This document shows, in pieces, positions 5,974-42,917 of a stretch of 47,826 nucleotides of DNA (its first letter is position 1; each line of letters starts with the position of its first letter). The translations under genes were made by a program, and so were the position numbers. Below the pieces are notes generated by a model that worked only from the letters and a program-made list of their open reading frames with translations, had not been told where the DNA came from and ran no database searches. The stretch comes from Tissierellia bacterium (GTDB lineage: Bacteria > Bacillota > Clostridia > Tissierellales > Tepidimicrobiaceae). Location: the NCBI GenBank assembly GCA_012735215.1, contig JAAYHX010000001.1:1-47826 (forward strand), in the 5' to 3' direction.

Positions 5974-6504
5974 TTATTCTCCTCTTTCCCAAGCATCTAG
6001 TTTTTCCATAACCCTATTATAGGTTTCTTTTGAGATTTCTGGCAGACCACCTAGCATCTTTTCTGCAGCCTTAAACCCATCGTCTATGGCTTTTCTAAGG
6101 GTGTCCAGCTTTGACTTGTCTCCTCCAGATATGGCTATAGCAAAGTCTACAATTCTTTGGCTGACAGCTTCAATCCCTAAGATTCCATCAGGTCCAATTA
6201 ATTCTTGAGCCTCTAGCCGAGCCTGTTCATCAACAATTACTTGATCTCCTTCTTTTAGTAGGTGAAAGGCTTTTCCCTGCCGAGCTAGTAAGTCCTCAAC
6301 AATTCTCCTTAAAGAGGAATATGCTCTTTCGCTATCCTTCTTAAGCTTGTCTACAGTCATCTTGTCATATATATGGCCTTTATCTTTATTGGATGTTTTT
6401 TCATAGACAGCTGCTGGCAATTCCTTCCCTCTTTTTTTCTTCTCGGTCACCACTTTTTCTGTTCTTGCAACTGGTAGGCCTGGATGAACTTTTTGGATTC
6501 TCAT
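5974..6504 (-). CDS. Conserved hypothetical protein of clostridia (176 aa)
   Basis: The start is ATG 6504 (MRIQKVHPGLPVAR) because AGAGGTG lies six bases upstream; the GTG at 6513 would overlap that site. The N-terminal 50 residues are basic and probably disordered. The rest is helical. The C-terminal half carries IGPDGILGIEAVSQRIVDFAIAISGGD, then MLGGLPEISKETYNRVMEKLD, a pattern I recall from uncharacterised Firmicute proteins with GPDGYWGVEQTSQRI-like stretches. No signal peptide or membrane helix is seen. The function is unknown. Upstream, GCCGATAT (6526-6533, minus strand) resembles a sigma-D type -10, but the matching -35 is poor. Confidence 0.7.
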   Translation of the reverse strand: MRIQKVHPGLPVARTEKVVTEKKKRGKELPAAVYEKTSNKDKGHIYDKMTVDKLKKDSERAYSSLRRIVEDLLARQGKAFHLLKEGDQVIVDEQARLEAQELIGPDGILGIEAVSQRIVDFAIAISGGDKSKLDTLRKAIDDGFKAAEKMLGGLPEISKETYNRVMEKLDAWERGE

Positions 6505-6764
6505 ATTCATCACCTCTCATCATATATATCGGCAAAAAAAGGAAAAAGATGATAAGAAAACTAATGCAATATAAAAATCATGGAAATTTTTTGCAATGTA
6601 ATGTAAAATTATAATATAAAACTGAATGAGAAAACAATATATGTGGTAGTTTCAGAAGTACTTAATAGATATGTTGGCAGGACAGATAAGGACATAATAG
6701 ATTCAAATTAATTAAGTTTTTTAAAAATATTTGGAGGGTTAAGAAACCTTCTGGGGGTTCATTT

Positions 6765-26675: not shown

Positions 26676-27677
26676 ATGCTTCTATTTAGGATGGGACCAC
26701 GGTATTTGTTTATTAGAACTAATGATACAGATGAAGTTACCAGATTTTTAGAGGAAAAACTTAGTGGAGAAGTAACAGATTTTTGGAAGGGATTTGAAAA
26801 GGCAACAGACGACAGCACTCTATGTTTTATAACAGACGCTAATTATGAAAAAACTAATGTGGAGGATGCTAAAGAAATAGTCCTTGTAAATAATGCTTCC
26901 ACAGTTATATTGTCTTCAATAATTAATAGTAATGTATCCCACCTTTTGAATAGGGTTGACTTGGGGCCAGCTTCAGTTGTTATGAGAGTAGCTGGTAACG
27001 AGAATAAGCTTATTGATAAAGTTAAAGAAAGGCTATCTGGAGAAGAAGTTGACTTAATAGAAGGGATAAACTTGGGTGATAAAGATGATACTATTATAGC
27101 CTTTACAAACAAGGTAATCCATGGTCCTGTTGCTCCAGCTGATTTTTTGGAAAGAAAATTATTAATTCCAAAGCCTATTAGAGAAGTTCAGGGAATACTC
27201 AGATTAGAAGCATTGAGGCTTATAACTCAATGTCTAAGCGACAGTCAGTGGTATGAGCTTAGAATTAATATATATGATTCAAATGGCAAATACGAGCAAA
27301 ATTATGAAAGGCTCATGTATGTTTTATCAAAGCTGGAAATAGGAATGAATTTAGGAGAGAGCTGGACTAAGGACTTTGCTTTGTCTCTGTTTTCAGTACT
27401 GACTTACCAGGTGAGGTTGTTTACATTTACTCCACCTCATGAGGTAAAAAAGATCTTAATTGCCCTAGAGTATACAATGGATGGTAATAGATTGGTAGAC
27501 TTTGATTTATATTATAAGAATAAGAAAATTCAGTGGCGAGAGGTAGATAAGACAAAAGAAAGGAAAACTAAGGCAGAAAAGGCTGTAGAGTATAGGAAGA
27601 GTTTATATGAAAAACTTAAACCAGAGGATATTGAATACTTGGAGAATATGGAAAAGAACCTAATTGAAGACAAGTAA
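26676..27677 (+). CDS. Uncharacterised protein with internal duplication (333 aa)
   Basis: AAGGGGGA lies seven bases before ATG 26676. I do not recognise the family. Within the N-terminal half two stretches look like copies: about residues 11-55 (LFIRTNDTDEVTRFLEEKLSGE ... TLCFITD) and about 98-145 (VVMRVAGNENKLIDKVKERLSGE ... TIIAFTN), each beta-alpha-beta like. The C-terminal 150 residues are different (LRLEALRLITQCLSDSQWYELRINIYD, then LLIAL-like helices) and end in a basic, helical tail. It is soluble, with no membrane helix. It is co-directional with the phosphoesterase before it and separated by a terminator from the hydrogenase genes. Confidence 0.75.
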   Translation: MLLFRMGPRYLFIRTNDTDEVTRFLEEKLSGEVTDFWKGFEKATDDSTLCFITDANYEKTNVEDAKEIVLVNNASTVILSSIINSNVSHLLNRVDLGPASVVMRVAGNENKLIDKVKERLSGEEVDLIEGINLGDKDDTIIAFTNKVIHGPVAPADFLERKLLIPKPIREVQGILRLEALRLITQCLSDSQWYELRINIYDSNGKYEQNYERLMYVLSKLEIGMNLGESWTKDFALSLFSVLTYQVRLFTFTPPHEVKKILIALEYTMDGNRLVDFDLYYKNKKIQWREVDKTKERKTKAEKAVEYRKSLYEKLKPEDIEYLENMEKNLIEDK

Positions 27678-27902: not shown

Positions 27903-28166
27903 ATGAAGGTAAAAGTGTGTATGGGATCTAATTGTACTTTATTGGGTGCCATGGATCTTTTAGATCAGATTGAGGATTTAAAGAAGCTAACTAGTGAAGA
28001 TGATAATTACAGTGATGATTTTGATATTGAAGTTGTTAAATGCCTAGGTTTTTGTAAAAAATCCAAGGATAACGTTGCACCTGTTGTGGTTATAGATGAT
28101 GAAATACTATTTAATGCAACTGGTCAAATAGTAATGGAGAAGATAATGAGCAAAAAGAAGAAATAA
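27903..28166 (+). CDS. Thioredoxin-fold [2Fe-2S] ferredoxin, NuoE/HydC-like
   Basis: 87 residues; GGGGGAG precedes ATG 27903. Four cysteines in the family spacing bind one [2Fe-2S] cluster: C6-x4-C11 and C47-x3-C51 (KVCMGSNCTLLG and VKCLGFCKKS). Proteins of this kind pass electrons between NAD(P)H dehydrogenase-type subunits and hydrogenases. Here it is encoded 22 bases before the [FeFe]-hydrogenase gene, so it is most likely its electron partner or small subunit. The C-terminus ends in a lysine tail. Confidence 0.88.
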   Translation: MKVKVCMGSNCTLLGAMDLLDQIEDLKKLTSEDDNYSDDFDIEVVKCLGFCKKSKDNVAPVVVIDDEILFNATGQIVMEKIMSKKKK

Positions 28167-28188
28167 TGGATGTGGAGGAAACTAAGTA

Positions 28189-29691
28189 ATGAAAGAAAGC
28201 TATGTTGATCTTGTAAACATAAGAAGAATGGTTTTTGCTGAAATTGCTAGGATAGCTTATAATGATGTAGATCTTAATGAATTAGAAAGATCTCCATATA
28301 ATATAATACCTGGAGAAGTAGCTAAATATAGGGAAAATATATTTAGAGAAAGGGCTATTGTGGAAGAGAGATTGAGATTAACTATGGGGCTTGATGCAAG
28401 ACACTTAAGTGAATTTGCAAGGGTAACTGATGGAATTGAAGAGGTTAATGTAAATGAAATGATGTTTATTCCACCCTTGGTAAATGTTATTACCTTTGCT
28501 TGCGAGGCTTGTCCAGTAAGGGCCTTTGTGGTAACAGATAATTGTAGAAAATGTCTGGCTCACCCTTGTACTAATGTATGTCCTGTAAATGCTGTATCCA
28601 TTGGTAGGGATAGGGCTATTATAGATAAGGAAAAATGCATTAAGTGTGGAAAATGCAAAGAAACTTGTCCATATAATGCAATTGTTGAATACGATAGACC
28701 TTGTGCACAGGTCTGCGGTGTCAATGCAATAGAAAGCGATGAGCTTGGAAGAGCTAAAATTAATGAAGAAAAATGTGTTTCATGTGGTCGTTGTATTACC
28801 CAATGTCCATTTGGAGCCATTGCTGATAAATCACAAATATATCAATTAGTACAAGCTTTAAAATCAAAAGAACATATGTATGCGATTATTGCCCCATCCT
28901 TTATAGGCCAATTTGGGGTACTGGCAAACCCTATGCAAATATTTGAAGGGATTAAGCAGCTTGGTTTTAAAGATGTAGTAGAAGTAAGCCTTGGTGCGGA
29001 TATAACTACACTAAATGAAGCAAAAGAATTCTTAGAAAAAGTTCCTAAAGAACATCCTTTTATGGGAACTAGCTGCTGTAACTCTTGGACTATGATGGTA
29101 CAAAAAATGTTTCCAGAACAATATAAGTATATATCGGATTCGGCTTCTCCAATGGTTGAAACTGCTAAGTATATTAAGGAGAAGGATCCTGAGGCTATCA
29201 TTACATTTATTGGACCCTGTATATCCAAAAAACTAGAAGCTCTAAGGGATGATGTTAAAGATTATGTACACTTTGTTATAACTTTTGAAGAACTCATGGG
29301 CATGTTTGTTGCTAAGAACATAGAGTTATCTGAAATAGTTATTGATAAGGATGTTCAGGATGCTTCTAGTCTAGGCAGGGGATATGCTGTAGCAGGTGGA
29401 GTTGCTGAAGCTGTAAAGAAAACAGCTCAAAGGCTTGACCCATCTAGGGAAATTCAAATAGAGTCAGCATCCAACCTTCATGATTGCGTCAAATTGATGA
29501 GACTTGCTAAGGCTGGAAAGAAAGATGGATACCTACTTGAAGGAATGGCATGCCCTAATGGATGTGTAGCAGGACCTGGAACATTAGCATCGTACAACAG
29601 AGTTAAGAAGGCTATAGCAGAATTCAAAAATCAATCAGCATATAGCACGCCTTTTGAAAATGAAAAAATAAGGGAAGACTTAAAACGCTAG
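28189..29691 (+). CDS. [FeFe]-hydrogenase, group-B-like, with ferredoxin domains
   Basis: 500 residues; GTGGAGGAA precedes ATG 28189. The N-terminus (about 90-220) carries three or more cysteine clusters: CEACPVRAFVVTDNCRKCLAHPCTNVCPV, CIKCGKCKETCPYN, CAQVCG and CVSCGRCITQCPF. The H-cluster domain follows. L1 reads TSCCNSW (about residue 294, usually TSCCPxW), L2 reads GPCISKKLE (about 341, usually MPCxxKxxE) and L3 reads EGMACPNGCVAGPG (about 451, usually ExMxCxxGCxxGGG). All cluster cysteines are kept. These changes resemble the less studied group B enzymes, which may evolve or sense hydrogen. No maturation genes (hydE/F/G) are nearby. Confidence 0.9.
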   Translation: MKESYVDLVNIRRMVFAEIARIAYNDVDLNELERSPYNIIPGEVAKYRENIFRERAIVEERLRLTMGLDARHLSEFARVTDGIEEVNVNEMMFIPPLVNVITFACEACPVRAFVVTDNCRKCLAHPCTNVCPVNAVSIGRDRAIIDKEKCIKCGKCKETCPYNAIVEYDRPCAQVCGVNAIESDELGRAKINEEKCVSCGRCITQCPFGAIADKSQIYQLVQALKSKEHMYAIIAPSFIGQFGVLANPMQIFEGIKQLGFKDVVEVSLGADITTLNEAKEFLEKVPKEHPFMGTSCCNSWTMMVQKMFPEQYKYISDSASPMVETAKYIKEKDPEAIITFIGPCISKKLEALRDDVKDYVHFVITFEELMGMFVAKNIELSEIVIDKDVQDASSLGRGYAVAGGVAEAVKKTAQRLDPSREIQIESASNLHDCVKLMRLAKAGKKDGYLLEGMACPNGCVAGPGTLASYNRVKKAIAEFKNQSAYSTPFENEKIREDLKR

Positions 29692-29711
29692 GCAGTGATG
29701 CCTAGCGTTTT
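29682..29711. terminator. Shared terminator, hydrogenase and ABC operon
   Basis: A twelve-bp perfect stem (29682-29693 with 29700-29711) overlaps the hydrogenase stop codon. It is followed by T on the plus strand and preceded by A, so it works for the convergent ABC operon too. Confidence 0.88.
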
Positions 29712-30731
29712 TTAATCAAAGTATAATATTTTTTCTAAACTTATATTCAAGTAGACTTTTTGTCCTATACTGAAGTTGGATATGTTATCAATTAAGGCAT
29801 CTACATTTAGTTTTACACCTTCAATTAATATAATAAATCTAACTATATTGCCCTGAGGGATATAGTCATCAATTACACCTTCAAATTGATAGAATTTATT
29901 TTCGTCTACTCTAACTTTACTTAAAAGGATTTCTATAGTCTCAGGCCTTAAAACTACTGATTTACTATCCATGTATTTGCCTTTTGTCAATCTAGAAAAT
30001 TCTTCTCCACTTAGGATATTATAATTTCCCATAAAGGAAGCCACATATTGAGTTTTTGGTTGCAGGTATAAATCAGTCGGTGAACCTGATTGTTCAACAT
30101 TTCCATCCTTCATCAAATGTATGGTATCTGACATAAACATTGCTTCATCCTGATCATGAGTGACCATTATTGATGTCATTCCATATTCTTTATGCAATTC
30201 CTTGAATTTTATCTGTAGTGATCTTCTCAGTTTAGCATCAATTGCACTAAAGGGTTCATCTAGCAGCAAAACTTTAGGCTTCATAACTATAGATCTTGCA
30301 AGGGCTACTCTCTGTTTTTCCCCACCGGATAGTTGTGATGGATAGCTCTTTACTTTATCACCTAGTCCAACAGATTCTAATGTATTTAGTACTTCCTTTT
30401 CTATAGTTTCTTCATCTGTCTTTTTTATTTTTAGGCCATATGCTACATTGTTAAATACATTCATTGTAGGGAATAATGCGTAGGATTGAAAGATCATACC
30501 TAAATTTCTATCCCTTGGGTTCTTATAAGTAATATCCTCGCCATCAAGTATTATTTTTCCGCTGTCTATAGTTTCAAGACCGGCAAGACACCTTAATAAG
30601 GTGGTCTTGCCACAGCCTGAAGATCCTAGAAGGGTTACAAAATCATTTTTCTCGATAGATAAATTAATATTTTTAAGAACTTTGTTGTTACCATAAGATT
30701 TGTTTACATCAACAAATTCAATATATGCCAT
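29712..30731 (-). CDS. ABC transporter ATPase with C-terminal OB (TOBE-like) domain
   Basis: 339 residues from ATG 30731 (MAYIEFVDVNKSYG), six bases after AGGTG; the GTG at 30740 overlaps that site. Walker A LGSSGCGKTT, Q-loop MIFQSYALF, signature LSGGEKQRVALARS, Walker B VLLLDEPFSAIDAKLR, H-loop MVTHDQDEA. Residues about 235-339 form an OB-like regulatory part, as in PotA/CysA. NitT/TauT systems usually have shorter ATPases, so this long form is a small oddity. It is the last gene of the four-gene operon and energises the permease 31811-32623. Confidence 0.93.
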   Translation of the reverse strand: MAYIEFVDVNKSYGNNKVLKNINLSIEKNDFVTLLGSSGCGKTTLLRCLAGLETIDSGKIILDGEDITYKNPRDRNLGMIFQSYALFPTMNVFNNVAYGLKIKKTDEETIEKEVLNTLESVGLGDKVKSYPSQLSGGEKQRVALARSIVMKPKVLLLDEPFSAIDAKLRRSLQIKFKELHKEYGMTSIMVTHDQDEAMFMSDTIHLMKDGNVEQSGSPTDLYLQPKTQYVASFMGNYNILSGEEFSRLTKGKYMDSKSVVLRPETIEILLSKVRVDENKFYQFEGVIDDYIPQGNIVRFIILIEGVKLNVDALIDNISNFSIGQKVYLNISLEKILYFD

Positions 30732-30748
30732 TTCGAACACCTATCTAG

Positions 30749-31786
30749 TTAATTTTGTTTAGCTTTTTCTACAAAACTCATATCGATTATATTTTCATAA
30801 CCAACTGGGTTTTCTATTATTCCAGCTTTTAAACAGAATCCTTCCATAGCTGCATATCCTTCTTCTGTAATAAATCCATCTGGTGAGTATGCAATTCTAG
30901 TTAATTGTATTTGCTCAATAAGAGTCTCCATTGGAGTACCATCGTACATTGGTGCTAATAACTCTGCTACTTCTTCATCACTATGATTTTGTATCCATTC
31001 ACATCCCCTAACAGTTGCATTAACAAACTTTTGGATGATTTCAGGATTTTCTTGTGCATATTTTTTTGTTGTAGTTATTATTGAAGCTTCATATCTATCT
31101 GAACCAAAGATTTCTTTTCTAGTTTCTGGATCTGCACAGTCTACTAAGAAGTTTGCCCCTATTTCTTTAAATCTATTTCTATTGGCATTGTCCATGTAGG
31201 AGGCATCAATTGTTCCTTGATTAAGAGCTGAAATAGAAGCACCATATTGGGTTTGAACAAAAGTTACATCTTTTTCAGGGTCTAATCCAGCATTTTCTAA
31301 TATACTCCAAACAAAAGTATATGGAGCAGAACCAGGAGCACCAGCAAAGATAGCCTTACCTTTCAATTGGGATAGATCAGTTATATCTTTTGAACCAACA
31401 AATCCATATAATCTAATAGTATCAACAGCAGCTACAACTGTAGACTCAAGTCCCTGATCAAATGCTTTAAGAACTGGATCAATTGATAGCATACAGAACT
31501 GAGAATCACCTGCATGCATTCCTTGGAAAGCTACTGGTCCATCGCCATATACTGCGAACTCAACATTTAGACCTTCTTCCTCAAAGTATCCATTTAGATA
31601 TGCAACATGAACAGGTGCATAGTTAGTACTTCTAAACTCTGATACAACTACTTTTGTTAATTCATTTTTCTCTGTATTATCGCCTGTACTATCATTTGTT
31701 TCGTTTTTTGTACATCCAACAACAAATGCTGCTGCAATAATTATTAACATAAATAAACTTATTAACTTCTTTGTATTCTTTTTCAT
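30749..31786 (-). CDS. NitT/TauT-type substrate-binding lipoprotein (NMT1/THI5-like)
   Basis: 345 residues; TAGGAG precedes ATG 31786. A lipoprotein signal is clear: MKKNTKKLISLFMLIIIAAA, then VVGC with the lipidated C25. The mature part has the periplasmic-binding fold type II pattern of SsuA/ThiY proteins: STNYAPVHVAYLNGYFEEEGLNVEF, then GMHAGDSQFCML, LKGKAIFAGAPGSAPYTFVWSILENAGLDPEKDV and GTIDASYMDN. Such proteins bind sulfonates, nitrate, thiamine pyrimidines or aromatic acids. The ligand here cannot be read from sequence. It is held at the outer membrane face and feeds the permease encoded just before it. Confidence 0.9.
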   Translation of the reverse strand: MKKNTKKLISLFMLIIIAAAFVVGCTKNETNDSTGDNTEKNELTKVVVSEFRSTNYAPVHVAYLNGYFEEEGLNVEFAVYGDGPVAFQGMHAGDSQFCMLSIDPVLKAFDQGLESTVVAAVDTIRLYGFVGSKDITDLSQLKGKAIFAGAPGSAPYTFVWSILENAGLDPEKDVTFVQTQYGASISALNQGTIDASYMDNANRNRFKEIGANFLVDCADPETRKEIFGSDRYEASIITTTKKYAQENPEIIQKFVNATVRGCEWIQNHSDEEVAELLAPMYDGTPMETLIEQIQLTRIAYSPDGFITEEGYAAMEGFCLKAGIIENPVGYENIIDMSFVEKAKQN

Positions 31787-31810
31787 ATTTTCACTCCTAT
31801 GTCTAATTTT

Positions 31811-32623
31811 TTAGTTTTTATTTCTTGAATTATTCAAGGATAGGGTTGTTTCACTTCTCCAAATTAATATTTTGCTTTCTAGAATATCTAAAATTTTATT
31901 TAAAGACATTCCTACTATTAGCAATATAACAATGCAGGACATAACTCTAGTAGTATTGAAATAAGAAGTTGAATAGGTTATCATCCATCCAAAACCACCT
32001 TTTGCTCCAATGTACTCACCAATAATTGCACCTACTAATGCAGCACCTATTCCTCCTCTAAAACCTGATAATACCCATGGCATACAAGCAGGAAGAATTA
32101 CTGTTCTTAAAGTTTGGATATTATTTGCTCCAAGTAGATTTGCAGATTCAATAATTTGCTTATCAATACCCTTTATAGCACCATAGGTTGAGGAGAATAC
32201 ATTGAAAAAAACTGATAGTCCTGCTAAGAAAGCTTTTGAGCTTAATCCTAAACCAAACCATAACACATAAATAGGCGCCAAAGCTAACTGAGGTATACAG
32301 CTAATGGCAGAAATAATTGGGGTAATAATATCCCCTAAAAAGGAAAAATACCCGAATATAATAGCTAATACTATTCCAATTATGCTTCCAAAGAATAAAC
32401 CCAGAAATGCTTCTGTTAATGTAATAGAAGCATGATAGGCTAATTCTCCGCTAGTCAAAAAGTTTACTAAATCTTTGAGGATTGCCATTGGATGGCTGGT
32501 AAAAATGGGATTGTATGAGCCTTTCTGAGCATATACTTCCCAAGCAAGTAATCCTCCCACGACTATTACAGTCCTAATTAGTAAAGCTAGATTATTGTTT
32601 GTTATTTTTCTACTACTTTCCAT
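31811..32623 (-). CDS. NitT/TauT-type ABC permease
   Basis: 270 residues from ATG 32623 (MESSRKITNNNLALLIRTVIVVGG), with AAAGGAAAG about eight bases upstream inside the end of the DUF169 gene and one base after its stop. Six membrane helices are visible. The EAA loop that contacts the ATPase is ESANLLGANNIQTLRTVILPACMPWVLSG. The final GGFGWMITYSTSYFNTTRVMSC is typical of SsuC/TauC. A start at 32659 would overlap DUF169 by 35 bases and has no ribosome site. It forms the channel of the four-gene transporter. Confidence 0.93.
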   Translation of the reverse strand: MESSRKITNNNLALLIRTVIVVGGLLAWEVYAQKGSYNPIFTSHPMAILKDLVNFLTSGELAYHASITLTEAFLGLFFGSIIGIVLAIIFGYFSFLGDIITPIISAISCIPQLALAPIYVLWFGLGLSSKAFLAGLSVFFNVFSSTYGAIKGIDKQIIESANLLGANNIQTLRTVILPACMPWVLSGFRGGIGAALVGAIIGEYIGAKGGFGWMITYSTSYFNTTRVMSCIVILLIVGMSLNKILDILESKILIWRSETTLSLNNSRNKN

Positions 32624-32624
32624 T

Positions 32625-33434
32625 TTATCTACTTTCCTTTTTTTCTTTTTCTTCCACAATATAGTAAGGTTCGCTATCCATATTTATTTGGGCAAGATTA
32701 GATTCTAAAAGTTTTTGGTTTATCCTTTGTTTATTATCTTCCATTTCAACTGACCTTACTGTGTTATAGATTCCATCTATTACATTTGAGAAAATTGAAT
32801 AAGGCATCCCAATAGCAACTTCATCTTCAGACCAATTAGCTAAGTATCTAGTTCCTGAACACAAAAAGGAGACATTTATGGTGTTGTTTAGATATGGATA
32901 TACAGTTGATTCTGCACATATAGCCTGATTTCCACTTAGGCTAAAATTCTTTGAAATCCCATAATGGTATGTATATCCTTGTATAACCCTCATCATCTCC
33001 CTTGGTTGTCCAATTATTATTACTACATCTGGATATAAGCCATCACCATATTTTTCAATAGGCTGTACAAGCACTCCATATGTGCTTTTAAAATTGTTAG
33101 CAGTTTGACTAGCACAACTCATGGCTATAGCTTGATCTTTAAACAACCCTAGCACATTATAACCTTCAGAACCATTGAAGTAATCATAACTAGGTACTTC
33201 AAAGCCTAAAGCTCTTGTACTTCCCCAGCAACCGGATGTTTTCCTATTCATTTTTATGCTATGTCCTAGAGTTGCAGATTTTACAGTCACACAATAGGAA
33301 ATTGGTCTAGTGAGTTCAATAGCCTCATAGTTAGCGTACTCTTCTTCTGAATTAATAAATTTGACACCAACTATTTTTCTTGATAAGTCTAATACTGCAT
33401 AAGCTTTACAAGAATCTTCTCTAATATTTGCCAC
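32625..33434 (-). CDS. DUF169 protein heading an ABC transporter operon
   Basis: 269 residues, GTG 33434 (MANIREDSCKAYAV), eight bases after AGGAGG; GTG 33443 overlaps that site. DUF169 landmarks: ISYCVTVKSATLGHSIKMN, TSGCWGSTRALGFE, GLFKDQAIAMSCAS, QPREMMRVIQGYTYHYG and the strongly conserved SGNQAICAESTVYPYL, then LCSGTRYLANWSEDEVAIGMPYS. Several cysteines are conserved (SYC, SGCW, AICAE, FLCSG), which hints at a metal or cofactor, but the function of DUF169 is not known. It is the first gene of the operon and translationally linked to the permease, so it should act on, sense or process the transported compound. The C-terminus is a charged helix. Confidence 0.88.
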   Translation of the reverse strand: MANIREDSCKAYAVLDLSRKIVGVKFINSEEEYANYEAIELTRPISYCVTVKSATLGHSIKMNRKTSGCWGSTRALGFEVPSYDYFNGSEGYNVLGLFKDQAIAMSCASQTANNFKSTYGVLVQPIEKYGDGLYPDVVIIIGQPREMMRVIQGYTYHYGISKNFSLSGNQAICAESTVYPYLNNTINVSFLCSGTRYLANWSEDEVAIGMPYSIFSNVIDGIYNTVRSVEMEDNKQRINQKLLESNLAQINMDSEPYYIVEEKEKKESR

Positions 33435-33542
33435 TTTTGTCACCTCCTATGTACATTAATCGATTAAAAGTATACAGATTATATAGGACCTTGTCTAATC
33501 AATAATATTTATAGGAATTGAATCATCAATAGATATTATAAA

Positions 33543-33570
33543 TTGACATATTATGGACAAATGGGATAAT
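33543..33570 (+). promoter_or_regulatory. Promoter of HpcH/HpaI aldolase gene
   Basis: TTGACA (33543-33548), 16-base spacer, GATAAT (33565-33570), about 60 bases before ATG 33631. The earlier in-frame ATG at 33553 falls inside this promoter, which supports the later start. Confidence 0.65.
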
Positions 33571-33630
33571 ATGAATTCAGTAGATATAGATATTTTAGCT
33601 TTATCAACTTATCTGAAAGGGGGATTTGTA

Positions 33631-34407
33631 ATGGAAAATAGGATGAAGGAGAAGATGGTAAATGGGGGATCGGTTCTAGGAACTTTTTTTGAACTTGGCA
33701 GTAGTGCAGCAGTAGAGTGTTTGGGTATTGCTGGATTAGATTTTCTAATAATAGATACTGAGCATGGACCCTTTGATGTAGAGAGTTCTTTGGACTTCAT
33801 TCGTGCTGCAGAAGTAAGGGACATTACACCACTAGTTAGGGTAAAGGATACTACTAGACCATCCATACTTAAAATGTTAGATATAGGAGCAAAAGGACTA
33901 GTTATACCTTGTATTGAAACTGTTGATCAAGTAAAACAGATAGTAGAATATGGGAAATATTATCCAATTGGTAGACGTGGGTTCTTTTATGCTAGGCCAG
34001 CAGGCTATGGATTTAAAAGTTTTGCAAAGGATATGGATCAGTATTTTAAAGTGTGTAATGAAAACACCTTGATTATTCCTCAGTGTGAAACTAAAGGTTG
34101 CTTGGATTCCATAGAAGAGATTGTAAATATAGAGGGAGTAGATGGAATTTTTATAGGCCCTTATGATCTTTCCATAGGAATGGGAATACCTGGACAATTT
34201 AATAATAATGATTTTAAGAAGGCCATAGATAGAATATTGAAAGCATGTAAGGCTGCTGGAAAGTTTGCTCTTATATTTGCTGGAAATACTGAAGCAGCAA
34301 AAAGATACTTGGATGATGGATTTAATGGAGTTGCCATAAATATGGATGCTGCAATATACATAAATGCATTCAAATCTATTATTCGAGAAGTAAGGGGTAT
34401 AGAATAA
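33631..34407 (+). CDS. HpcH/HpaI family aldolase
   Basis: 258 residues from ATG 33631 (MENRMKEKMVNGGSVLGTFFELGS); AAAGGGGG is seven bases upstream. It is a class II (metal-dependent) aldolase of the HpaI/YfaU/GarL group, which split 4-hydroxy-2-oxo acids into pyruvate or an analogue and an aldehyde. Motifs: IIDTEHGPFDVES, RVKDTTRPSILKMLDIGAKGLVIPCIETV, GRRGFFYARPAGYG, IIPQCETKG (metal E), GIFIGPYDLSIGMGIPGQF (metal D). It is divergent from the DUF169/ABC operon across only about 195 bases, suggesting a common pathway: uptake, then retro-aldol cleavage. The substrate is unknown. Confidence 0.9.
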   Translation: MENRMKEKMVNGGSVLGTFFELGSSAAVECLGIAGLDFLIIDTEHGPFDVESSLDFIRAAEVRDITPLVRVKDTTRPSILKMLDIGAKGLVIPCIETVDQVKQIVEYGKYYPIGRRGFFYARPAGYGFKSFAKDMDQYFKVCNENTLIIPQCETKGCLDSIEEIVNIEGVDGIFIGPYDLSIGMGIPGQFNNNDFKKAIDRILKACKAAGKFALIFAGNTEAAKRYLDDGFNGVAINMDAAIYINAFKSIIREVRGIE

Positions 34408-34432
34408 TAATTCATATATGGGCATTCTCAGA

Positions 34433-34607
34433 ATGGTAAAGGCTTGTACCAATTACAACAATTTGGGATGAGCTAAATAAAGATGATCTTGATATAATAT
34501 TTGCTTACCTTACATCTGGGAATTTGGGTGTTCAGGAAATGTGGAAAGCCTTGTCCTTATATAACAATGTGGCTGGTGCTTATACTGAAAAGTTAGAAAC
34601 AGCTTGA
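34433..34607 (+). pseudogene. Unidentified gene tail
   Basis: ATG 34433 opens MVKA and is soon shifted; a neighbouring frame then reads VPITTIWDELNKDDLDIIFAYLTSGNLGVQEMWKALSLYNNVAGAYTEKLETA and stops at TGA 34605. One base added near 34443 would join them. The helical, acidic composition is protein-like. I do not recognise the family. No ribosome site precedes it. It lies just behind the aldolase gene on the same strand. Confidence 0.4.
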
Positions 34608-34734
34608 GCATTTTAGTATGTATAAAACTATTTGCAACACATAAGTGTAGCTTACTAAGAAGTTTTCCTAAAGATAGATTTAGAACTGACATCTTATCTG
34701 GATTATATAAATGAGGATCACTGCAATGGAAATT

Positions 34735-34768
34735 ATAAGGGGTAGGTAAATTTTTACCTACCCCTTAT
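34735..34768 (-). terminator. Terminator of proline iminopeptidase gene
   Basis: A 16-bp perfect stem (34735-34750 with 34753-34768) with a two-base centre, so effectively a long palindrome. It lies eight bases after the stop of the minus-strand gene. Confidence 0.75.
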
Positions 34769-34775
34769 AGATTAA

Positions 34776-35660
34776 TTAATCATGTTTATTTAACCATTTA
34801 ATTAGCACGTCTATGTACTTGTCTGTTTCTTCTACGAAGGGCATATGGCGGCTGAATTCAAATAATTCCCATTCAGAATTAGGAATTTTATCATACATTG
34901 TCTTTGCAATAAATGGTGAGCAAAGGTCATCTATACCACTTGTTATCAAACAAGGTTCTTGAATGTCCTCTATTTCATCCATGAAATCAAAATCTTTTAA
35001 TGTACCAGTTGGAGTAAATTCATTTGGTCCCCACCCAGTTATATAGGCTTCAGTTCCAGCTACCTTTGGACGTTTTAAGCATTCTGGTGAATCCTCGGTT
35101 ATCTCTCCTGCACAGTGACGAAGCATGAATTCTGCTTCTGCTGCTTTATATTCTTCAGATGAATAGTCTCCAGTTGCTTCAGCTTTTGCAATGGCCTCTT
35201 GCATTTCTTGTGGAAGGTATTTTATCCTTCTGCGTTGTTCTTTTTCCCACAATTTAGCTGATGGCAAAGTACTAGATAGGATGTAGCTCTTTATACCTTC
35301 TGGTTTGTATTGACAAGCGTATTGAATAGCTAGCATTCCTCCCCAGGATTGTCCTAATAAATGGATTTCGTCTAAACCTAAGTGTTTACGCAACTGAATT
35401 AATTCTTCGATCCAAGTTTTTGCATGCCATAAGTCAGGACGGGAAGGAGTAGAAGATAATCCACAGCCTATTTGGTCATACATAATAAGGGCTCTTCCAT
35501 CCATCTCAGCAAGTTTATCTAGAACCTCGAAATAGTTGTGGGTTGAGCCTGGTCCTCCATGAACCAATACTAAGGGCTTCTTATTTCCTGTGCATTCTCC
35601 TACAATTCGATAATAAGTTTTGTATTCCAGATATGGCATATATCCTTCAGTAATTTTCAT
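34776..35660 (-). CDS. pip: Proline iminopeptidase-like alpha/beta hydrolase
   Basis: 294 residues; AAGGAGAG precedes ATG 35660. Family S33 features: the oxyanion loop HGGPGSTHNYF (residues 34-44), DQIGCGLSS, the nucleophile elbow G103-Q-S105-W-G-G, an acid in SGIDDLCSP (about 245) and the histidine in SRHMPF (about 272). The cap domain (130-200) has the family stretch RRIKYLPQEMQEAIAKAEATGDY and ends in PECLKRP. These are the features of the tricorn-interacting-factor F1/Pip group, which removes N-terminal proline or other small residues from peptides in the cytoplasm. It is monocistronic with its own consensus promoter and terminator. Confidence 0.92.
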   Translation of the reverse strand: MKITEGYMPYLEYKTYYRIVGECTGNKKPLVLVHGGPGSTHNYFEVLDKLAEMDGRALIMYDQIGCGLSSTPSRPDLWHAKTWIEELIQLRKHLGLDEIHLLGQSWGGMLAIQYACQYKPEGIKSYILSSTLPSAKLWEKEQRRRIKYLPQEMQEAIAKAEATGDYSSEEYKAAEAEFMLRHCAGEITEDSPECLKRPKVAGTEAYITGWGPNEFTPTGTLKDFDFMDEIEDIQEPCLITSGIDDLCSPFIAKTMYDKIPNSEWELFEFSRHMPFVEETDKYIDVLIKWLNKHD

Positions 35661-38990: not shown

Positions 38991-39061
38991 ATATGCAATA
39001 AAATTGCTATTTCTACATATTAATGGTAATATGAAGTAAATATATGTTGGGGATGGTATTT

Positions 39062-39997
39062 ATGAAGGATATAAATGATAGGCTGTTAAGGATAAAGGCT
39101 GATTTGAAAGAAAAGGAAAGATTACATAAAATGCTTAATAATGCAATCAAACAGAAAGAGGAATTGAAAGTAAAGAAAGCTGAACTGTATAAAGGCTTGC
39201 AAAAGGAGGAAAGGGATGTAAAAAGGCTTGAAGGAATTTCCCTATCTAATTTTATCAATACCCTACTTGGAACTAAATGGGAAAAGTTGGATAAAGAGCA
39301 AAAGGAAGCTATTGCTGCAAAGCTTAAATATGATACTGTATGCCAAGAACTAGATGAGATCATTAAGGATATTGAGCGAATAAAGGCTAGCATAAGTAAA
39401 TTTGACAATCTAGAGAAGGAATACATAAGAATAATTAAGGAAAAAGAAGAATTGCTTAAGTCTGTAGATAAGAATATGGCAGCTAGATTAGAAAGAATTA
39501 CCGAAGAAGAATCAATGCTTATAGATAGAAAGAAGGAACTTAAGGAAGCAATTTCTGCTGGCAATGAGCTATTATCTTCCCTTCAAGGTATAGGCCAAAA
39601 TTTGAAATCTGCAGGGAATTGGGGAGTATGGGATATGTTTGGGGGAGATATGATTGCAACTATGGCAAAACATTCTAAACTAAATAGAGCTGAGGCTGAA
39701 ATTTCAAGAACACAAACTCTTTTAAGAAGATTTCATAGAGAGCTAGAGGATGTTGGAGGCTATGTGGATATTGATATTAATATAGGTAACTTTTTAACTT
39801 TTGCAGATTTCTTTTTTGATGGTCTGATTTCAGATCTAGCTGTTCAGTCAAGAATAAGGGATGCAGAAAACAGGGTTATGGATGCTATAGGCAAGGTGAG
39901 AAGCATAATTATAAGGCTTAATGGTGAGCTAGACATAACTCTTAGCAAAATAGAAGAACTTAACAGAGAAAGGTTAAGAATTATTGAGCAGGCATAA
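39062..39997 (+). CDS. Coiled-coil protein of unknown function (311 aa)
   Basis: I start at ATG 39062 (MKDINDRLLRIKADLKEKERLHK), since GGGGATGG lies just upstream; ATG 39044 has no site. Residues 1-60 and 95-180 are long charged coiled coils (KEKERLHKMLNNAIKQKEEL, KEKEELLKSVDKNMAARLE). A short conserved-looking stretch follows, SAGNWGVWDMFGGDMIATMAKHSKL (about 190-215), and then more helix. The GNWG-WDMFGG-IA-MAKHSK pattern recurs in uncharacterised Firmicute proteins. No membrane helix is seen. The function is unknown. Confidence 0.75.
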   Translation: MKDINDRLLRIKADLKEKERLHKMLNNAIKQKEELKVKKAELYKGLQKEERDVKRLEGISLSNFINTLLGTKWEKLDKEQKEAIAAKLKYDTVCQELDEIIKDIERIKASISKFDNLEKEYIRIIKEKEELLKSVDKNMAARLERITEEESMLIDRKKELKEAISAGNELLSSLQGIGQNLKSAGNWGVWDMFGGDMIATMAKHSKLNRAEAEISRTQTLLRRFHRELEDVGGYVDIDINIGNFLTFADFFFDGLISDLAVQSRIRDAENRVMDAIGKVRSIIIRLNGELDITLSKIEELNRERLRIIEQA

Positions 39998-40081: not shown

Positions 40082-40127
40082 TAAATACATTATAATTATT
40101 TTTCAATTAAACACGGGGAATGTTTTA

Positions 40128-40377
40128 GAGGCAGAGGAGTAATTATGACGAGTACATCTTACAGAGAACCTGGGTTAGGTGGGAGCCAGGAGATGGAAAG
40201 CTTAATGAAAAGAGCTGCTGAAATGGATAGGACAAAGCTTTTGAGGCGAGTATCTTATCCCGCATTGATGCGTTATCTAAGTAGAGCTGGTATTTTTGCT
40301 AAGTTAACTAGCAAAAATACAATGAGAGTGGCACCGCGAGTATAACTCGTCTCTTAAGTTAGAGACGAGTTTTTTGT
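40128..40377 (+). promoter_or_regulatory. T-box riboswitch 1, AGA (Arg) specifier
   Basis: Stem I: base GCAG/CTGC, S-turn AGTA opposite GAA, then AGA (40211-40213) after GAA plus one base, followed by G. The apical part has the usual ACAGAGA and GGTTAGGTGGGAGCCAGG pattern. Stem II is GGATA/TATCC. The T-box sequence is AGAGTGGCACCGCG (40325-40338). The terminator is CTCGTCTCT/AGAGACGAG (40347-40369 region) with a T run. Uncharged tRNA pairing at the specifier and at the T-box prevents termination. An AGA codon implies tRNA-Arg(UCU). Confidence 0.9.
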
Positions 40378-40408
40378 TACAAAAAATTAAATAAATAATA
40401 TAGTCTAT

Positions 40409-40650
40409 GAAACAGAGAGTAGTTATATTAGTAGATTCTACAGAGAGCTGGGGTAGGTGAGAGCCAGTGAATTGAAAATATAATGAAGAGAGCTGTTGAG
40501 ACAAACAGGACAAAGCCAGCTTGGTAAGTATCCTGTTTCGCATTCAAGGCGTTATCTGATTTGAGGTGGGTTTTGTAAAAAACCAATAAGAGTGGCACCG
40601 CGAGATTATCTCGTCTCTTGTATTTTAGTATAAGAGACGAGTTTTTTTAT
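40409..40650 (+). promoter_or_regulatory. T-box riboswitch 2, AGA (Arg) specifier, in tandem
   Basis: Same build as copy 1: base ACAG/CTGT, AGTA opposite GAA, stem TTATATT/AATATAA, specifier AGA at 40489-40491 after GAA plus one base. Apical GGGGTAGGTGAGAGCCAG. Stem II AACAGGA/TCCTGTT. T-box AGAGTGGCACCGCG (about 40590-40603). Terminator TCTCGTCTCTT/AAGAGACGAG with seven T. It lies between copy 1 and the SBP gene. Both must read through for expression. Confidence 0.9.
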
Positions 40651-40697
40651 AACTAAAAAGAAAATAATAAAAGAAAGGAAAAGGAGAGGTGTATCAA

Positions 40698-41528
40698 ATG
40701 AAAAAGATGATCAGTTTATTAATGATAGTAGTTGTATTAGCAAGCTTACTTGTGGCTTGCGGAAATGGGGAAAAGGAGGGGTCACAAGAGAATAATTCAA
40801 AGGTAGAAAGCTATACTCTAGAAGGTATCAAAAATAAGGGGAAAATAATACTTGGAACCAGTGCAGATTATCCACCCTTTGAGTTCCACAAGGTAATAGA
40901 TGGAAAGGATGAAATAGTTGGGTTTGATATTGAAATTGCAAAATATATAGCAGATCAACTAGGTGTAGAATTGGAGATAAAGGATATGGATTTTGATAAA
41001 CTATTAGGTGGTCTATCTACTGGCATGTTAGATATTGTAATTGCTGGTATGAATCCAGATCCAGAAAGGGAAAAGGAAGCTAACTTTACAGATATTTATT
41101 ACGAATCTGCCCATAGTGTGTTAATCCATAAGGAAAATGCAGATAAAATTGTTAAAGTAGAGGATTTAAATGGCAAAAGCATAGGAGTTCAAATTGGTAC
41201 AACTCAAGAGGAGTTAGCCAAAACTACTATAGAAAATGCAGATGTACTAAGCTTAAGTTCAAATCCAGATATAGTTATGAATCTAAAAACTAAGAAAATT
41301 GACTGTGCTATTATGGAAGAGCCAGTTGCAAAATCCTTTGCTGCTGCAAATGATGACTTAATGGTTGTTGAAGGAATAAGTCTAAGTGCTGGTTCTGAAG
41401 GTGTTGCAATAGCTGTAAAGAAGGGTAATGATCAGCTAACAGAGAAACTGAATGAAATCTTAGCGGACGCTAAAGCTAAAGGCCTATTGGAAAAATGGTT
41501 TGTTGAAGCAAGTGAGCTTGCTGAGTAG
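40698..41528 (+). CDS. Polar amino acid (predicted arginine) binding lipoprotein
   Basis: 276 residues from ATG 40698, eight bases after AAGGAGAGGTG. Lipoprotein signal: MKKMISLLMIVVVLASLLVA then C21. The mature part is a family-3 amino acid binding protein: GKIILGTSADYPPFEF (binding cleft), VGFDIEIAKYIADQLGVELEIKDMDFDKLLGGLSTGMLDIVIAGM and LNGKSIGVQIGTTQEELAK. It captures a polar amino acid outside the membrane. The upstream AGA T-boxes point to arginine. It is the first gene of the three-gene operon. Confidence 0.93.
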   Translation: MKKMISLLMIVVVLASLLVACGNGEKEGSQENNSKVESYTLEGIKNKGKIILGTSADYPPFEFHKVIDGKDEIVGFDIEIAKYIADQLGVELEIKDMDFDKLLGGLSTGMLDIVIAGMNPDPEREKEANFTDIYYESAHSVLIHKENADKIVKVEDLNGKSIGVQIGTTQEELAKTTIENADVLSLSSNPDIVMNLKTKKIDCAIMEEPVAKSFAAANDDLMVVEGISLSAGSEGVAIAVKKGNDQLTEKLNEILADAKAKGLLEKWFVEASELAE

Positions 41529-41539
41529 GAGGAGTCAAT

Positions 41540-42196
41540 TTGAATGTTTTAGATTTGTTCATAGAATATAAACACTATTATATAATAGGAATAAAAATAA
41601 CCATACTGCTATCCTTTTTATCCCTCATTGCAGGTGTCATATTGGGAACTATATTGTGCCTATTGAAGATGTCAAAGTATAAACTGTTGAGCATTCTTTC
41701 AACTGTATATATTGAAATAGTCAGAGGAACCCCAATGATGGTTCAAATAGCAATAGTATATTTTGGTAGCTATGTGATGATGGGAGTAAACGTGGACGGC
41801 TTTATAGCTGCATTAATAGCTGTTTCCTTAAATAGTGCCGCCTATGTGGCAGAAATAATTAGATCAGGTATACAGTCAATTGATAAGGGGCAATGGGAAG
41901 CCAGCAGAAGCTTAGGCTTGTCCAATAAGCAAACTATGAGACATATAATATTGCCTCAAGCCATAAAGAATATATTGCCTGCCTTGGGAAATGAGTTTGT
42001 AACCTTAATCAAGGAAACAGCCGTAGCCTCTACTATAGGGGTGGCAGATTTGATGTATGCTTCAAAAATAGTCCAAAGCAGTAGTTATCAACCTTTCAAT
42101 CCATTGGTAATAGTGGCAGTAATATACTTCCTATTGACATTTACCCTATCTCAGTTAATAGGAATATTTGAAAGGAGATTATCACACAGTGATTAG
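41540..42196 (+). CDS. Amino acid ABC permease, HisM/ArtQ type
   Basis: 218 residues, TTG start at 41540 with AGGAGGAG about six bases upstream. Membrane helices are visible at about 15-40, 50-72, 80-105 and 185-208. Family features: [18 protein letters not shown], then [51 protein letters not shown] (the EAA loop that docks with the ATPase). It forms the channel, probably as a homodimer, since only one permease gene is present. The stop overlaps the ATPase start by eight bases. Confidence 0.93.
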
Positions 42197-42917
42197 AATA
42201 GAAAACCTAAATAAGTATTTTGGAGACAAACATGTTTTAAAGAACATAAATCTGGAAATTAAAAAGGGTGAAGTTGTGGCCCTTATAGGACCTTCTGGAT
42301 CTGGGAAAAGCACCCTGATAAGGTGTATTGATTATTTGGAAGAACCTACATCTGGAAGTATTTTCATTAAAGGAGAAAACATAGCTAAAGCAGGCAAGGG
42401 CATAGACAGGATAAGACAGAGCATAGGAATGGTTTTCCAGCATTTTAACCTATTTCCCCATAAAACAGTTATGGAGAATATAACCTTAGCTCCAGTCTTA
42501 ACAGGAAAACTTACAAAAAAAGAAGCAGAAAACAAGGCATTAGAGCTATTAAAAATAATGGATCTTGTGGATAAGAAGGACGTGTATCCAAACTCCCTCT
42601 CAGGAGGGCAAAAACAGAGGATTGCCATTGCCAGATCTCTAGCTATGGACCCAGAAATTATGTTGTTTGATGAAGCTACATCAGCCCTAGATCCAGAAAT
42701 GGTTGGTGAGGTATTAAGCGTTATGAAATATCTAGCTGAAACAGGTATGACTATGATAGTGGTAACCCATGAAATGGCTTTTGCTAAACAGGTAGCTGAT
42801 AGGGTTATATTCATGGCTGATGGAGAAATTATAGAAGAAAATAGTGCAGTAGAGTTATTTGAAAACCCACAAAACCCAAGAACAAAAGATTTTTTATCAA
42901 AGGTGCTGCAATATTAA
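42189..42917 (+). CDS. Amino acid ABC ATPase, GlnQ/ArtP type
   Basis: 242 residues. I start at GTG 42189 ([24 protein letters not shown]), after AAAGGAGA inside the permease end; an upstream in-frame ATG (42168) would add seven residues lacking similarity to the family. Walker [12 protein letters not shown]-loop [11 protein letters not shown], signature [15 protein letters not shown], Walker [17 protein letters not shown]-loop VVTHEMAFA. It powers uptake by the permease 41540-42196 in the cytoplasm. Confidence 0.93.

Follow-up and report, generated by a model that had tools for sequence, protein, structure and literature searches.

A DUF169 protein in an ABC importer operon of a Tissierellia bacterium, a possible counterpart of TudS-related desulfidases

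The importer locus and its described relatives

Among the closest described relatives of the importer discussed here are the NitT/TauT systems SsuABC, TauABC and ThiXYZ, with which it shares an NMT1-type solute-binding protein (SBP) and a TauC/SsuC-type permease, whereas its ATPase is of the long PotA/CysA type and its components score below the SsuA, TauA, TauC and SsuC cut-offs. For the DUF169 family, of which a member is encoded with this importer, no function is named in the available excerpts of the open-access literature that mentions it. A second group for comparison is that of the TudS [4Fe-4S] thiouracil desulfidases (DUF523, PF04463). According to the excerpted text of PMC10611767, these act on thiouracil and 4-thio-UMP and bind their cluster with three cysteines, and the cluster-binding residues, which are also proposed to be catalytic, are found in a Cys, Cys-x-Glu, Ser-x-Ser-Cys set. 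A third known group, the HpcH/HpaI aldolases (HpaI, GarL, YfaU), belongs to the same superfamily as the enzyme encoded divergently from the operon.

The locus lies in a 47,826-nucleotide stretch of contig JAAYHX010000001.1 (hereafter the window) and has the following features:

29712-30740, minus strand: ABC ATPase of the PotA/CysA type with a weak C-terminal TOBE domain (Pfam ABC_tran, 128.5 bits)
30749-31786, minus strand: solute-binding lipoprotein, NMT1/THI5-like, PF09084 (Pfam NMT1, 90.5 bits; SBP alignment A2)
31811-32623, minus strand: ABC permease of the TauC/SsuC type, PF00528 (BPD_transp_1, 94.0 bits; ATG start at 32623)
32625-33443, minus strand: DUF169 protein, PF02596, 272 amino acids, first gene of the operon (conserved C51, C72, C176, C195 and R199)
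33444-33630 (187 bases), no strand assigned: candidate divergent promoter region (consensus matches only)
33631-34407, plus strand: HpcH/HpaI class II aldolase (HpcH_HpaI, 121.4 bits), judged to lie outside the system

Coordinates and Pfam matches bear out the original prediction of four linked minus-strand genes, with DUF169 as the operon leader at one base from the permease, provided that the latter starts at ATG 32623. In Pfam profile searches DUF169 belongs to PF02596 (177.4 bits, cut-off 27, residues 17-223) and the aldolase to PF03328 (121.4 bits, cut-off 25). The predicted longer ATPase type also agrees with the profile matches, of which the top NCBIfam ones are PhnT2/PotA-like and all under their cut-offs; its TOBE_2 tail is matched weakly, at 20.0 bits against a cut-off of 21. 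The binding protein, expected to be of the SsuA/THI5 type, is indeed NMT1/THI5-like by its Pfam score, but its SsuA_fam score of 84.1 is well below the cut-off of 163.5. Other sulfonate and taurine models are likewise missed by the importer (TIGR01729, 27.3 vs 304.25; TauC, 105.8 vs 342; SsuC, 99.2 vs 347).

SaoP is the top NCBIfam match of the permease (127.3 bits against a cut-off of 295), and there is a weak match of the SBP to SaoX (38.0 bits, cut-off 300). Combined with the Cys-rich site of DUF169 and with the pairing of DUF169 genes elsewhere with ECF YkoE-type ('ABC_cobalt') and SLAC1 proteins, this could indicate that the four cysteines bind or transfer a soft metal or metalloid, and that what is imported is a metal chelate or an organometallic, as has been suggested for Sao systems. 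We consider this unlikely, since every Sao match, including that to SaoA (200.4 vs 360), is far under its cut-off, no Sao enzyme was seen among the neighbours annotated, and the TudS-related partner of related transporters, described below, favours C–S chemistry.

Recurrence of the operon and the neighbouring aldolase

The order DUF169-permease-SBP-ATPase recurs in four other loci: L132 of Acetoanaerobium pronyense, L051, L052 and L057, the contig of the last ending before the ATPase, so that DUF169, permease and SBP are seen there. The survey of DUF169 neighbourhoods that had been suggested thus yields a recurring cluster, and recurrence across genera is solid. Because the same block is found in other genera, the linkage of the four genes exceeds chance, and because DUF169 forms a recurring operon with this ABC importer, a direct role in handling the imported compound, as originally suggested, is likely. 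The window permease is 71% identical to that of L132. A scan of named genomes with the SBP alignment gave at least 80 loci; among the matches listed, L132 was the only close one (65%) and the only one with DUF169. No further such operons occurred in 22 genomes of the order of G073.

The aldolase behaves differently. It had been proposed that DUF169, the importer and the aldolase form a single uptake-and-cleavage pathway, for instance for a sugar acid, and in this genome the aldolase and the operon do share a divergent intergenic region; furthermore, a distantly similar ABC importer set lies within a few genes of three of the 16 aldolase relatives inspected (L302, L305, L310). However, the aldolase is absent from the four other DUF169-type loci (L057 and L051 having only 0.2 and 1.9 kb of upstream sequence) and from all 12 TudS-type loci treated below. 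Among 41 DUF169 neighbourhoods it is present in that of the window alone, and none of the 16 neighbourhoods of aldolase relatives contains DUF169 or a TudS-related gene. With no co-occurrence in any other locus sampled, an outcome named at the outset as counting against the proposal, the aldolase was rejected as a pathway member and is judged an unrelated neighbour of the importer operon, which leaves the single-pathway view very improbable. The enzyme has relatives in the PDB and differs from the described aldolases in scoring below four NCBIfam equivalog cut-offs (HpaI, 169.1 vs 368.8; GarL, 157.5 vs 406.75; NF007849, 160.8 vs 393; 2-keto-3-deoxy-L-rhamnonate aldolase, 143.1 vs 441).

The shared region is close in size to the 195 bases first proposed, at 187, but the aldolase start has moved from 33553 to 33631. 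The latter ATG is most likely the true start because it is preceded by a strong ribosome-binding site, because the HpaI model begins at residue 29 of the long open reading frame, and because the best plus-strand promoter match (TTGACA-16-GATAAT, 11 of 12 consensus positions, 33543-33570) overlaps the upstream ATG. On the minus strand TAGACA-17-TATACT (33497-33469) is a promoter candidate. Counted as consensus matches only, there are five promoter-like sites in 33300-33750, where shuffled sequence gives 2.5 on average (sd 1.6), and 25 over 29600-34900 against an average of 25.8, which equals chance.

TudS-related partners of related transporters

In 12 loci of 12 other genomes a related transporter occurs without DUF169, and in each of these a TudS-related putative desulfidase, which could be a partner for a cleavage step, is encoded alongside. 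All 12 proteins at this operon place exceed the cut-off (130 bits) of the CD3072-family model NF045597, with 134.8-210 bits, the lowest being cut by a contig end; two scanned individually scored 207.5 and 205.6 bits. Their scores with PF04463 are below the gathering score of 34.7 (23.7-26.2 bits for five that were scanned). The set Cys, Cys-Pro-Glu, Ser-Pro-Ser-Cys, which corresponds to the TudS cluster and catalytic residues, is kept in the seven of the 12 proteins that were compared (six aligned ones and that of L217). In 11 loci of the same order as the window (L119-L129) the permease is 55-61%, the SBP 48-50% and the ATPase 57-60% identical to the window proteins, and in L217 the permease is 50% and the SBP 40% identical, with a different ATPase. 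The CD3072-family operons thus resemble that of the window in their permease and SBP, in 11 of 12 cases also in the ATPase, and in having a small soluble protein with conserved cysteines within the operon; they differ in that this protein is TudS-related and encoded at the 3' end, whereas DUF169 is at the 5' end. Among the papers listed on TudS and transporters, none concerned such an operon.

At the level of the locus the two partners did not meet: DUF169 is in none of loci L119-L131 and the TudS-related gene in none of 41 DUF169 neighbourhoods. They are not mutually exclusive genome-wide: DUF169 is encoded at another place in 10 of the 12 TudS-type genomes, and A. pronyense and G073, both of the DUF169 type, have a TudS-related gene away from the operon. 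Neither partner accompanies the more distant transporters L130 and L131 (SBP 32-33% identical) or, L132 aside, 79 further loci among the matches listed (24-30%), which confines the pairing to one transporter subfamily. Transporter trees, with 63-69% support and a disagreeing SBP-only tree, are compatible with either direction of the exchange.

Elsewhere, TudS-related genes directly adjoin ECF S components in six of nine loci examined, three of these components being named by Pfam and the remainder recognised because they are 58-80% identical to these three. The idea that DUF169 and TudS-related genes are exchanged at ECF transporters as well was considered and dropped, as the S component next to DUF169 in L073 bears only a faint similarity to those beside TudS-related genes (best E 0.004). 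A selenoprotein TudS in L120 was also rejected: the in-frame TGA aligns with Trp of relatives, not Cys, and is therefore attributed to a nonsense mutation or faulty assembly, not to selenocysteine.

A nucleoside hydrolase gene is found alongside the TudS-type operon in three of the four TudS-type loci of genus g18. Together with the substrates of TudS (excerpted text of PMC10611767) and with the similarity of the SBP to a pyrimidine-binding THI5-like protein of solved structure (3ix1, E 7e-9), this could point to an importer specific for thionucleosides or thiopyrimidines, with DUF169 as a thiopyrimidine desulfidase. However, the hydrolases are found in g18 only, are 83-86% identical and lie at varying sides of the operon, and 3qsl, to which the SBP is closest among solved structures, bears no more specific title than 'putative exported protein'. 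This narrower case of the sulfur-compound importer proposed below is quite improbable.

Conservation and proposed role of DUF169

In a 42-sequence alignment of bacterial relatives (A1), C72, C176 and C195 are present in all members and C51 in 41, with one gap; R199 is kept to the same extent (41-42 of 42). Among 28 archaeal relatives, which are 14-28% identical to the window protein, 25 have R199 and 20 have all four cysteines, eight lacking at least one at the aligned column. Lys64, Met151 and Arg152 are the same in every bacterial sequence but are not retained in archaeal members. The window protein gives no match to PF04463 at E up to 0.001, nor is this family among the 18 Pfam families listed when all 42 members are searched with E values as high as 10, a search in which the HMMER filters drop most weak matches; other families give single-member, chance-level matches only. 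There is no detectable homology with TudS and no match to any solved structure, so the analogy with TudS rests on gene context and conserved cysteines. A structure model built from two sequences has a mean pLDDT of 36.3, too low to be informative.

DUF169 genes lie beside transporters in 37 of 42 cases (NMT1, MetQ, OsmF, ECF, SLAC1, MatE and Opp types), and the wide set, with MATE, SLAC1 and Opp, would fit a general sensor too. Association with more than one transporter kind is a trait that DUF169 and TudS-related genes have in common, which favours a parallel between them. There are also hints of sulfur or selenium around other DUF169 genes: URO-D/MtaA-type methyltransferase relatives, a kind known from methyl-sulfur and methyl-selenium gene clusters (excerpted text of PMC10418091), are within four genes of six of the 42, and a TauE-like gene adjoins DUF169 in D. 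alaskensis (excerpted text of PMC4001038). Scans of viral contigs gave no confirmed DUF169. Protein sizes had hinted at a connection with tungsten/molybdenum or aldehyde oxidoreductases, which was dropped: the SBPs scanned were of the MetQ/OsmF type, and the 612-residue neighbour in L055 is a 5'-nucleotidase and the 588-residue one in L050 a glycoside hydrolase (the 612-residue neighbour in L071 was outside the scan).

At least seven transporter kinds are more than one substrate class would suggest, and DUF169 might instead be a ligand- or redox-sensing regulator of the activity or expression of the adjoining transporter. We regard this as fairly unlikely. No DNA-binding family appears beyond chance-level matches in single members (e.g. 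HTH_19, E 0.22, one of 42), and the four cysteines and the arginine kept from archaea to bacteria, as well as the TudS-related protein by a related transporter, argue for chemistry. Moreover, the DUF169 tree requires at least seven changes of transporter kind, close to the six that seven kinds demand in any case, which implies that partners are fairly fixed within clades.

Our preferred explanation, held tentatively and with somewhat less than even confidence, is that the operon serves the uptake of a small compound, probably one that contains sulfur, and that DUF169 is a cytosolic enzyme, dependent on a metal or a [4Fe-4S] cluster, whose action parallels that of the TudS-related desulfidase. 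The NitT/TauT-type lipoprotein, permease and ATPase would take up a small organic compound, probably containing sulfur and possibly selenium, such as a thiopyrimidine or another thiocarbonyl compound. The four-Cys site of DUF169, most likely holding a [4Fe-4S] cluster and possibly another metal, would then remove or handle the sulfur, so that DUF169 would take the place that a TudS-related protein, a putative [4Fe-4S] desulfidase, has in the sister operons. DUF169 has four conserved cysteines, against the three that bind the cluster in TudS. That related importers have a desulfidase relative in place of DUF169 suggests that DUF169 acts on the sulfur of the imported compound; recurrence of the operon, the TudS-related partner of the related transporter and the conserved cysteines are observed, and cluster, substrate class and reaction are what we infer. 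A wider form of this proposal, possible but rather doubtful, is that DUF169 constitutes an unrecognised family of Cys-ligated [4Fe-4S] enzymes in bacteria and archaea, non-homologous to TudS, which removes sulfur (or selenium) from the compounds of many importers, the present operon being one form of a transporter-coupled desulfidase superfamily.

The exchange of DUF169 and TudS-related genes at related transporters, with four cysteines kept into archaea, offers a first concrete and cheap functional test for DUF169. If the proposal is true, it would reveal a new route for drawing sulfur from imported compounds and would offer an entry point to the numerous transporters accompanied by DUF169.

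The operon and its surroundings

According to ORF reading and family models, all five genes named in the original prediction are present and arranged as it described, with a gene for a class II aldolase of the HpcH/HpaI type standing divergently beside a four-gene block. The gaps within this block are 1, 24 and 8 bases in transcription order, the one-base spacing between DUF169 and permease presupposing that the permease begins with the ATG at 32623.

33443-32625, minus strand: DUF169, first in transcription order
32623-31811, minus strand: permease, second
31786-30749, minus strand: NMT1/THI5-type lipoprotein (solute-binding protein, SBP), third
30740-29712, minus strand: long ATPase, fourth
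28189-29691, plus strand: [FeFe] hydrogenase gene, convergent with the operon and abutting the ATPase end

A terminator-like inverted repeat between the ATPase and hydrogenase genes was recognized by direct reading of the sequence and is absent from the element-scan listing. The region 27903-29691 (+) specifies a monomeric group B [FeFe] hydrogenase (TIGR04105, 610 bits), whose gene is preceded by one for an 87-aa NuoE-like 2Fe-2S protein; the two probably form an operon. Elsewhere in the window, two tandem T-box leaders (40117-40621 (+); 116.2 and 131.7 bits) precede the genes for an ABC importer (SBP_bac_3, permease, ATPase; 40689-42917), and the ORFs at 26676-27677 (+; 333 aa) and 39044-39997 (+; 317 aa) have no Pfam match (E up to 1e-4).

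The aldolase most likely starts at the ATG at 33631, since a strong ribosome-binding site precedes this codon, matches to the family models start close to it, and a good promoter match (33543-33570) overlies the upstream ATG, promoter matches around the operon being consensus matches with a frequency in the wider region no higher than in shuffles. The two transcription units do share a divergent region as proposed, but with this start its length would be 187 bases instead of 195.

Recurrence of the operon and the place of the aldolase

The window DUF169 protein was searched against its family (20 genomes, E up to 1e-10), a class draw (391 genomes) and its order (249 genomes; both E up to 1e-45), which yielded 46 genes, the window's counted. 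Of these, 42 were mapped, four order members (G462, G526, G527, G529) being left out, and the 40 stretches fetched (L049-L088) gave 41 neighbourhoods with the window. The order DUF169-permease-SBP-ATPase is repeated in L051 (genome G296) and L052 (G073), as judged by Blast and ORF maps, and L057 (G426) shows DUF169-permease-SBP up to the contig end. A further locus, L132 of Acetoanaerobium pronyense, came from a named-genome scan and SBP alignment, with permease, SBP and ATPase 71, 64 and 69% identical to those of the window. With five loci, the window's included, the expectation that DUF169 and the ABC importer recur as a cluster is borne out, and importer type and operon recurrence are established by sequence comparison. 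Neither DUF169 nor the TudS-related gene discussed below occurs in the 79 other loci listed by the named-genome SBP scan (SBPs 24-30% identical).

The aldolase had been taken as a member of an uptake-and-cleavage system. By phmmer, it is present in one of the 41 DUF169 neighbourhoods, that of the window, and no true aldolase was found in the four other DUF169-type loci or in 12 related loci with a TudS-related gene; three matches (E near 1e-4) land on TudS-related genes and were taken as chance. L057 and L051, with 0.2 and 1.9 kb upstream of DUF169, are weak tests for the aldolase, and L052 and L132 offer more than 6 kb. Within the order, 40 of 249 genomes have an aldolase match, the window's counted (E up to 1e-30), and neighbourhoods with flanks of up to 6 kb were examined for 16 of the 20 best non-window matches. 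None of these 16 contains DUF169 or a TudS-related gene, and the neighbours that they have in common are confined to single genera, except for one unannotated family of about 390 aa in four (two families). What counts against an unlinked aldolase is an ABC importer set a few genes away in three of the 16 (L302, L305, L310), each set bearing a distant resemblance either to MetQ/MetI or to the transporter of the window (MetQ/MetI-like in two, NMT1-like in one). Family models and solved relatives describe the window aldolase as an ordinary HpcH/HpaI enzyme. On this comparative evidence, the aldolase is judged not to belong with the operon, and the finding is worth keeping without it.

A sister operon and probable exchange of the soluble partner

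An SBP search in the order matched 30 of 249 genomes (E up to 1e-30), matches near 30% identity being left out of mapping. Outside the DUF169 type, 11 loci have an SBP about 50% identical to the window's, in the same gene order, with permease, SBP and ATPase 55-61, 48-50 and 57-60% identical. DUF169 is absent from all 11, and a gene of about 183 aa lies 3' of the ATPase instead. Five of its products matched PF04463 (2-thiouracil desulfurase) weakly (23.7-26.2 bits, cut-off 34.7), and the two compared with NCBIfam gave strong matches to NF045597 ('CD3072 family TudS-related putative desulfidase'; cut-off 130), at 205.6 and 207.5 bits. Six of the proteins served to build an HMM, which matches in all 11 loci, including L123, where the gene is truncated by the contig end. 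In L120 the gene (6397-6960, minus strand) has one in-frame TGA at the position of a Trp in its relatives, a nonsense change or an assembly error in an incomplete genome. A more distant twelfth locus from the class draw (L217, G288) reads ATPase-permease-SBP-TudS-related, with a different ATPase; by genome search, NF045597 is above cut-off at all 12 places. The three cluster Cys and the Glu and Ser residues of TudS, as described in PMC10611767, are kept in six aligned proteins and in that of L217. Neither partner was found in L130 and L131 (SBP 32-33% identical); L130 instead encodes a URO-D protein along with a molybdopterin oxidoreductase. An IU-type nucleoside hydrolase adjoins the sister operon, on differing sides, in three loci of a single genus, g18 (L121, L126, L129), a hint of a nucleoside substrate.

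The two partners keep apart at these transporters. No TudS-related gene occurs in the 41 DUF169 neighbourhoods, and genome searches found no NF045597 match in the DUF169-type genomes G000 (the window's), G296 and G426; G073 and A. pronyense have one away from the operon. Conversely, 10 of the 12 TudS-type genomes have DUF169 genes, never at the sister transporter, and G016 and G413 have none. When permease and SBP are combined in one tree, the 11 TudS-type loci from the order group together (support 100), with two other clades made up of the window's locus and L132 (95) and of L051, L052 and L057 (100); the branching order is supported at 63-69 only, and single-gene trees partly differ. On the DUF169 tree the proteins of DUF169-type loci cluster weakly (70/61). 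The simplest account of these distributions and trees would be at least one exchange between DUF169 and the TudS-related partner, in either direction.

The DUF169 protein and its possible role

DUF169 is a companion of transporters generally. A hand count over the 41 neighbourhoods, with Pfam/NCBIfam labels of representatives extended by phmmer, placed beside the 42 genes ABC transporters of NMT1 (4), MetQ (18) and OsmF type (3), ECF (3), SLAC1 (5), MatE (3) and Opp (1), and no recognized transporter beside five (L050, L062, L070, L071, L078). For 26/42 DUF169 genes there is an ABC ATPase no more than three genes off, as against 42/201 of the genes six or more away (P 6e-7 by Fisher's test, with related genomes non-independent). 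The window genome's second DUF169 gene is the last after an ECF YkoE-ATPase-CbiQ transporter (L081, 2150-5768). URO-D/MtaA-type proteins, which PMC10418091 ties to methyl-sulfur and methyl-selenium metabolism, lie within four genes of six DUF169 genes (L058, L059, L060, L067, L069, L077); of three scanned against NCBIfam, one exceeded a curated cut-off. TudS-related genes at other places (11 found, nine fetched) share the transporter-adjacent habit: in six of the nine (L237-L240, L243, L244) the gene directly adjoins an ECF S component, these components being 57-80% identical to one another, and the two likely form a separate importer-desulfidase pair. A PotA-type ABC set accompanies it in L241 and L245 (one genus), and L242 has no recognized transporter beside it.

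In an alignment of 42 bacterial DUF169 proteins (window numbering), C72, C176, C195, K64, R152, R199 and K238 are invariant, and C51 is present in 41, the remaining one having a gap. Of 101 genomes in the phylum to which the Thermoprotei member G622 belongs, 19 contain a DUF169 match. Of 30 fetched archaeal loci, 28 had an alignable ORF and two were dropped; the proteins are 14-28% identical to the window's, and 20 of 28 keep all four Cys and 25 keep R199. Asp139 is the sole further polar column in at least 22 of them, and K64, M151 and R152 are lost as conserved residues. Since four widely spaced Cys are the deepest conserved residues, they constitute a candidate metal or Fe-S site. Beyond PF02596, Pfam gave chance-level, single-member matches only for the 42 proteins, and a search of solved structures found no relative.

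The literature on COG2043 and IPR003748 came down to PMC4001038, and none was found for CD3072; PMC12828279, PMC9163064 and PMC2817789 were set aside, as they concern longer DUF numbers. In PMC4001038, the D. alaskensis DUF169 gene Dde_0597 shares a cluster with a TauE-like gene, and mutants of Dde_0597 are described as fitter in nitrate; in PMC5322559 a DUF169 gene ranks seventh among STRING-linked proteins of YedE, and according to PMC8762117 DUF169 at times adjoins SepRS in archaea. These three are the papers found to contain DUF169 as a whole word, and their passages on it give no function.

We propose that the lipoprotein would bind a small compound with sulfur (or selenium) in it, that permease and ATPase would bring it into the cell, and that DUF169 may free or take over the sulfur at its four-Cys site, comparable to desulfuration by TudS at its cluster. 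The lipoprotein's nearest solved relatives (3qsl, the pyrimidine binder 3ix1, 4nmy and a taurine binder) are too distant for naming the ligand. The importer itself is of a known kind; what is new is its DUF169 partner and the likely exchange of that partner with a TudS-related protein.
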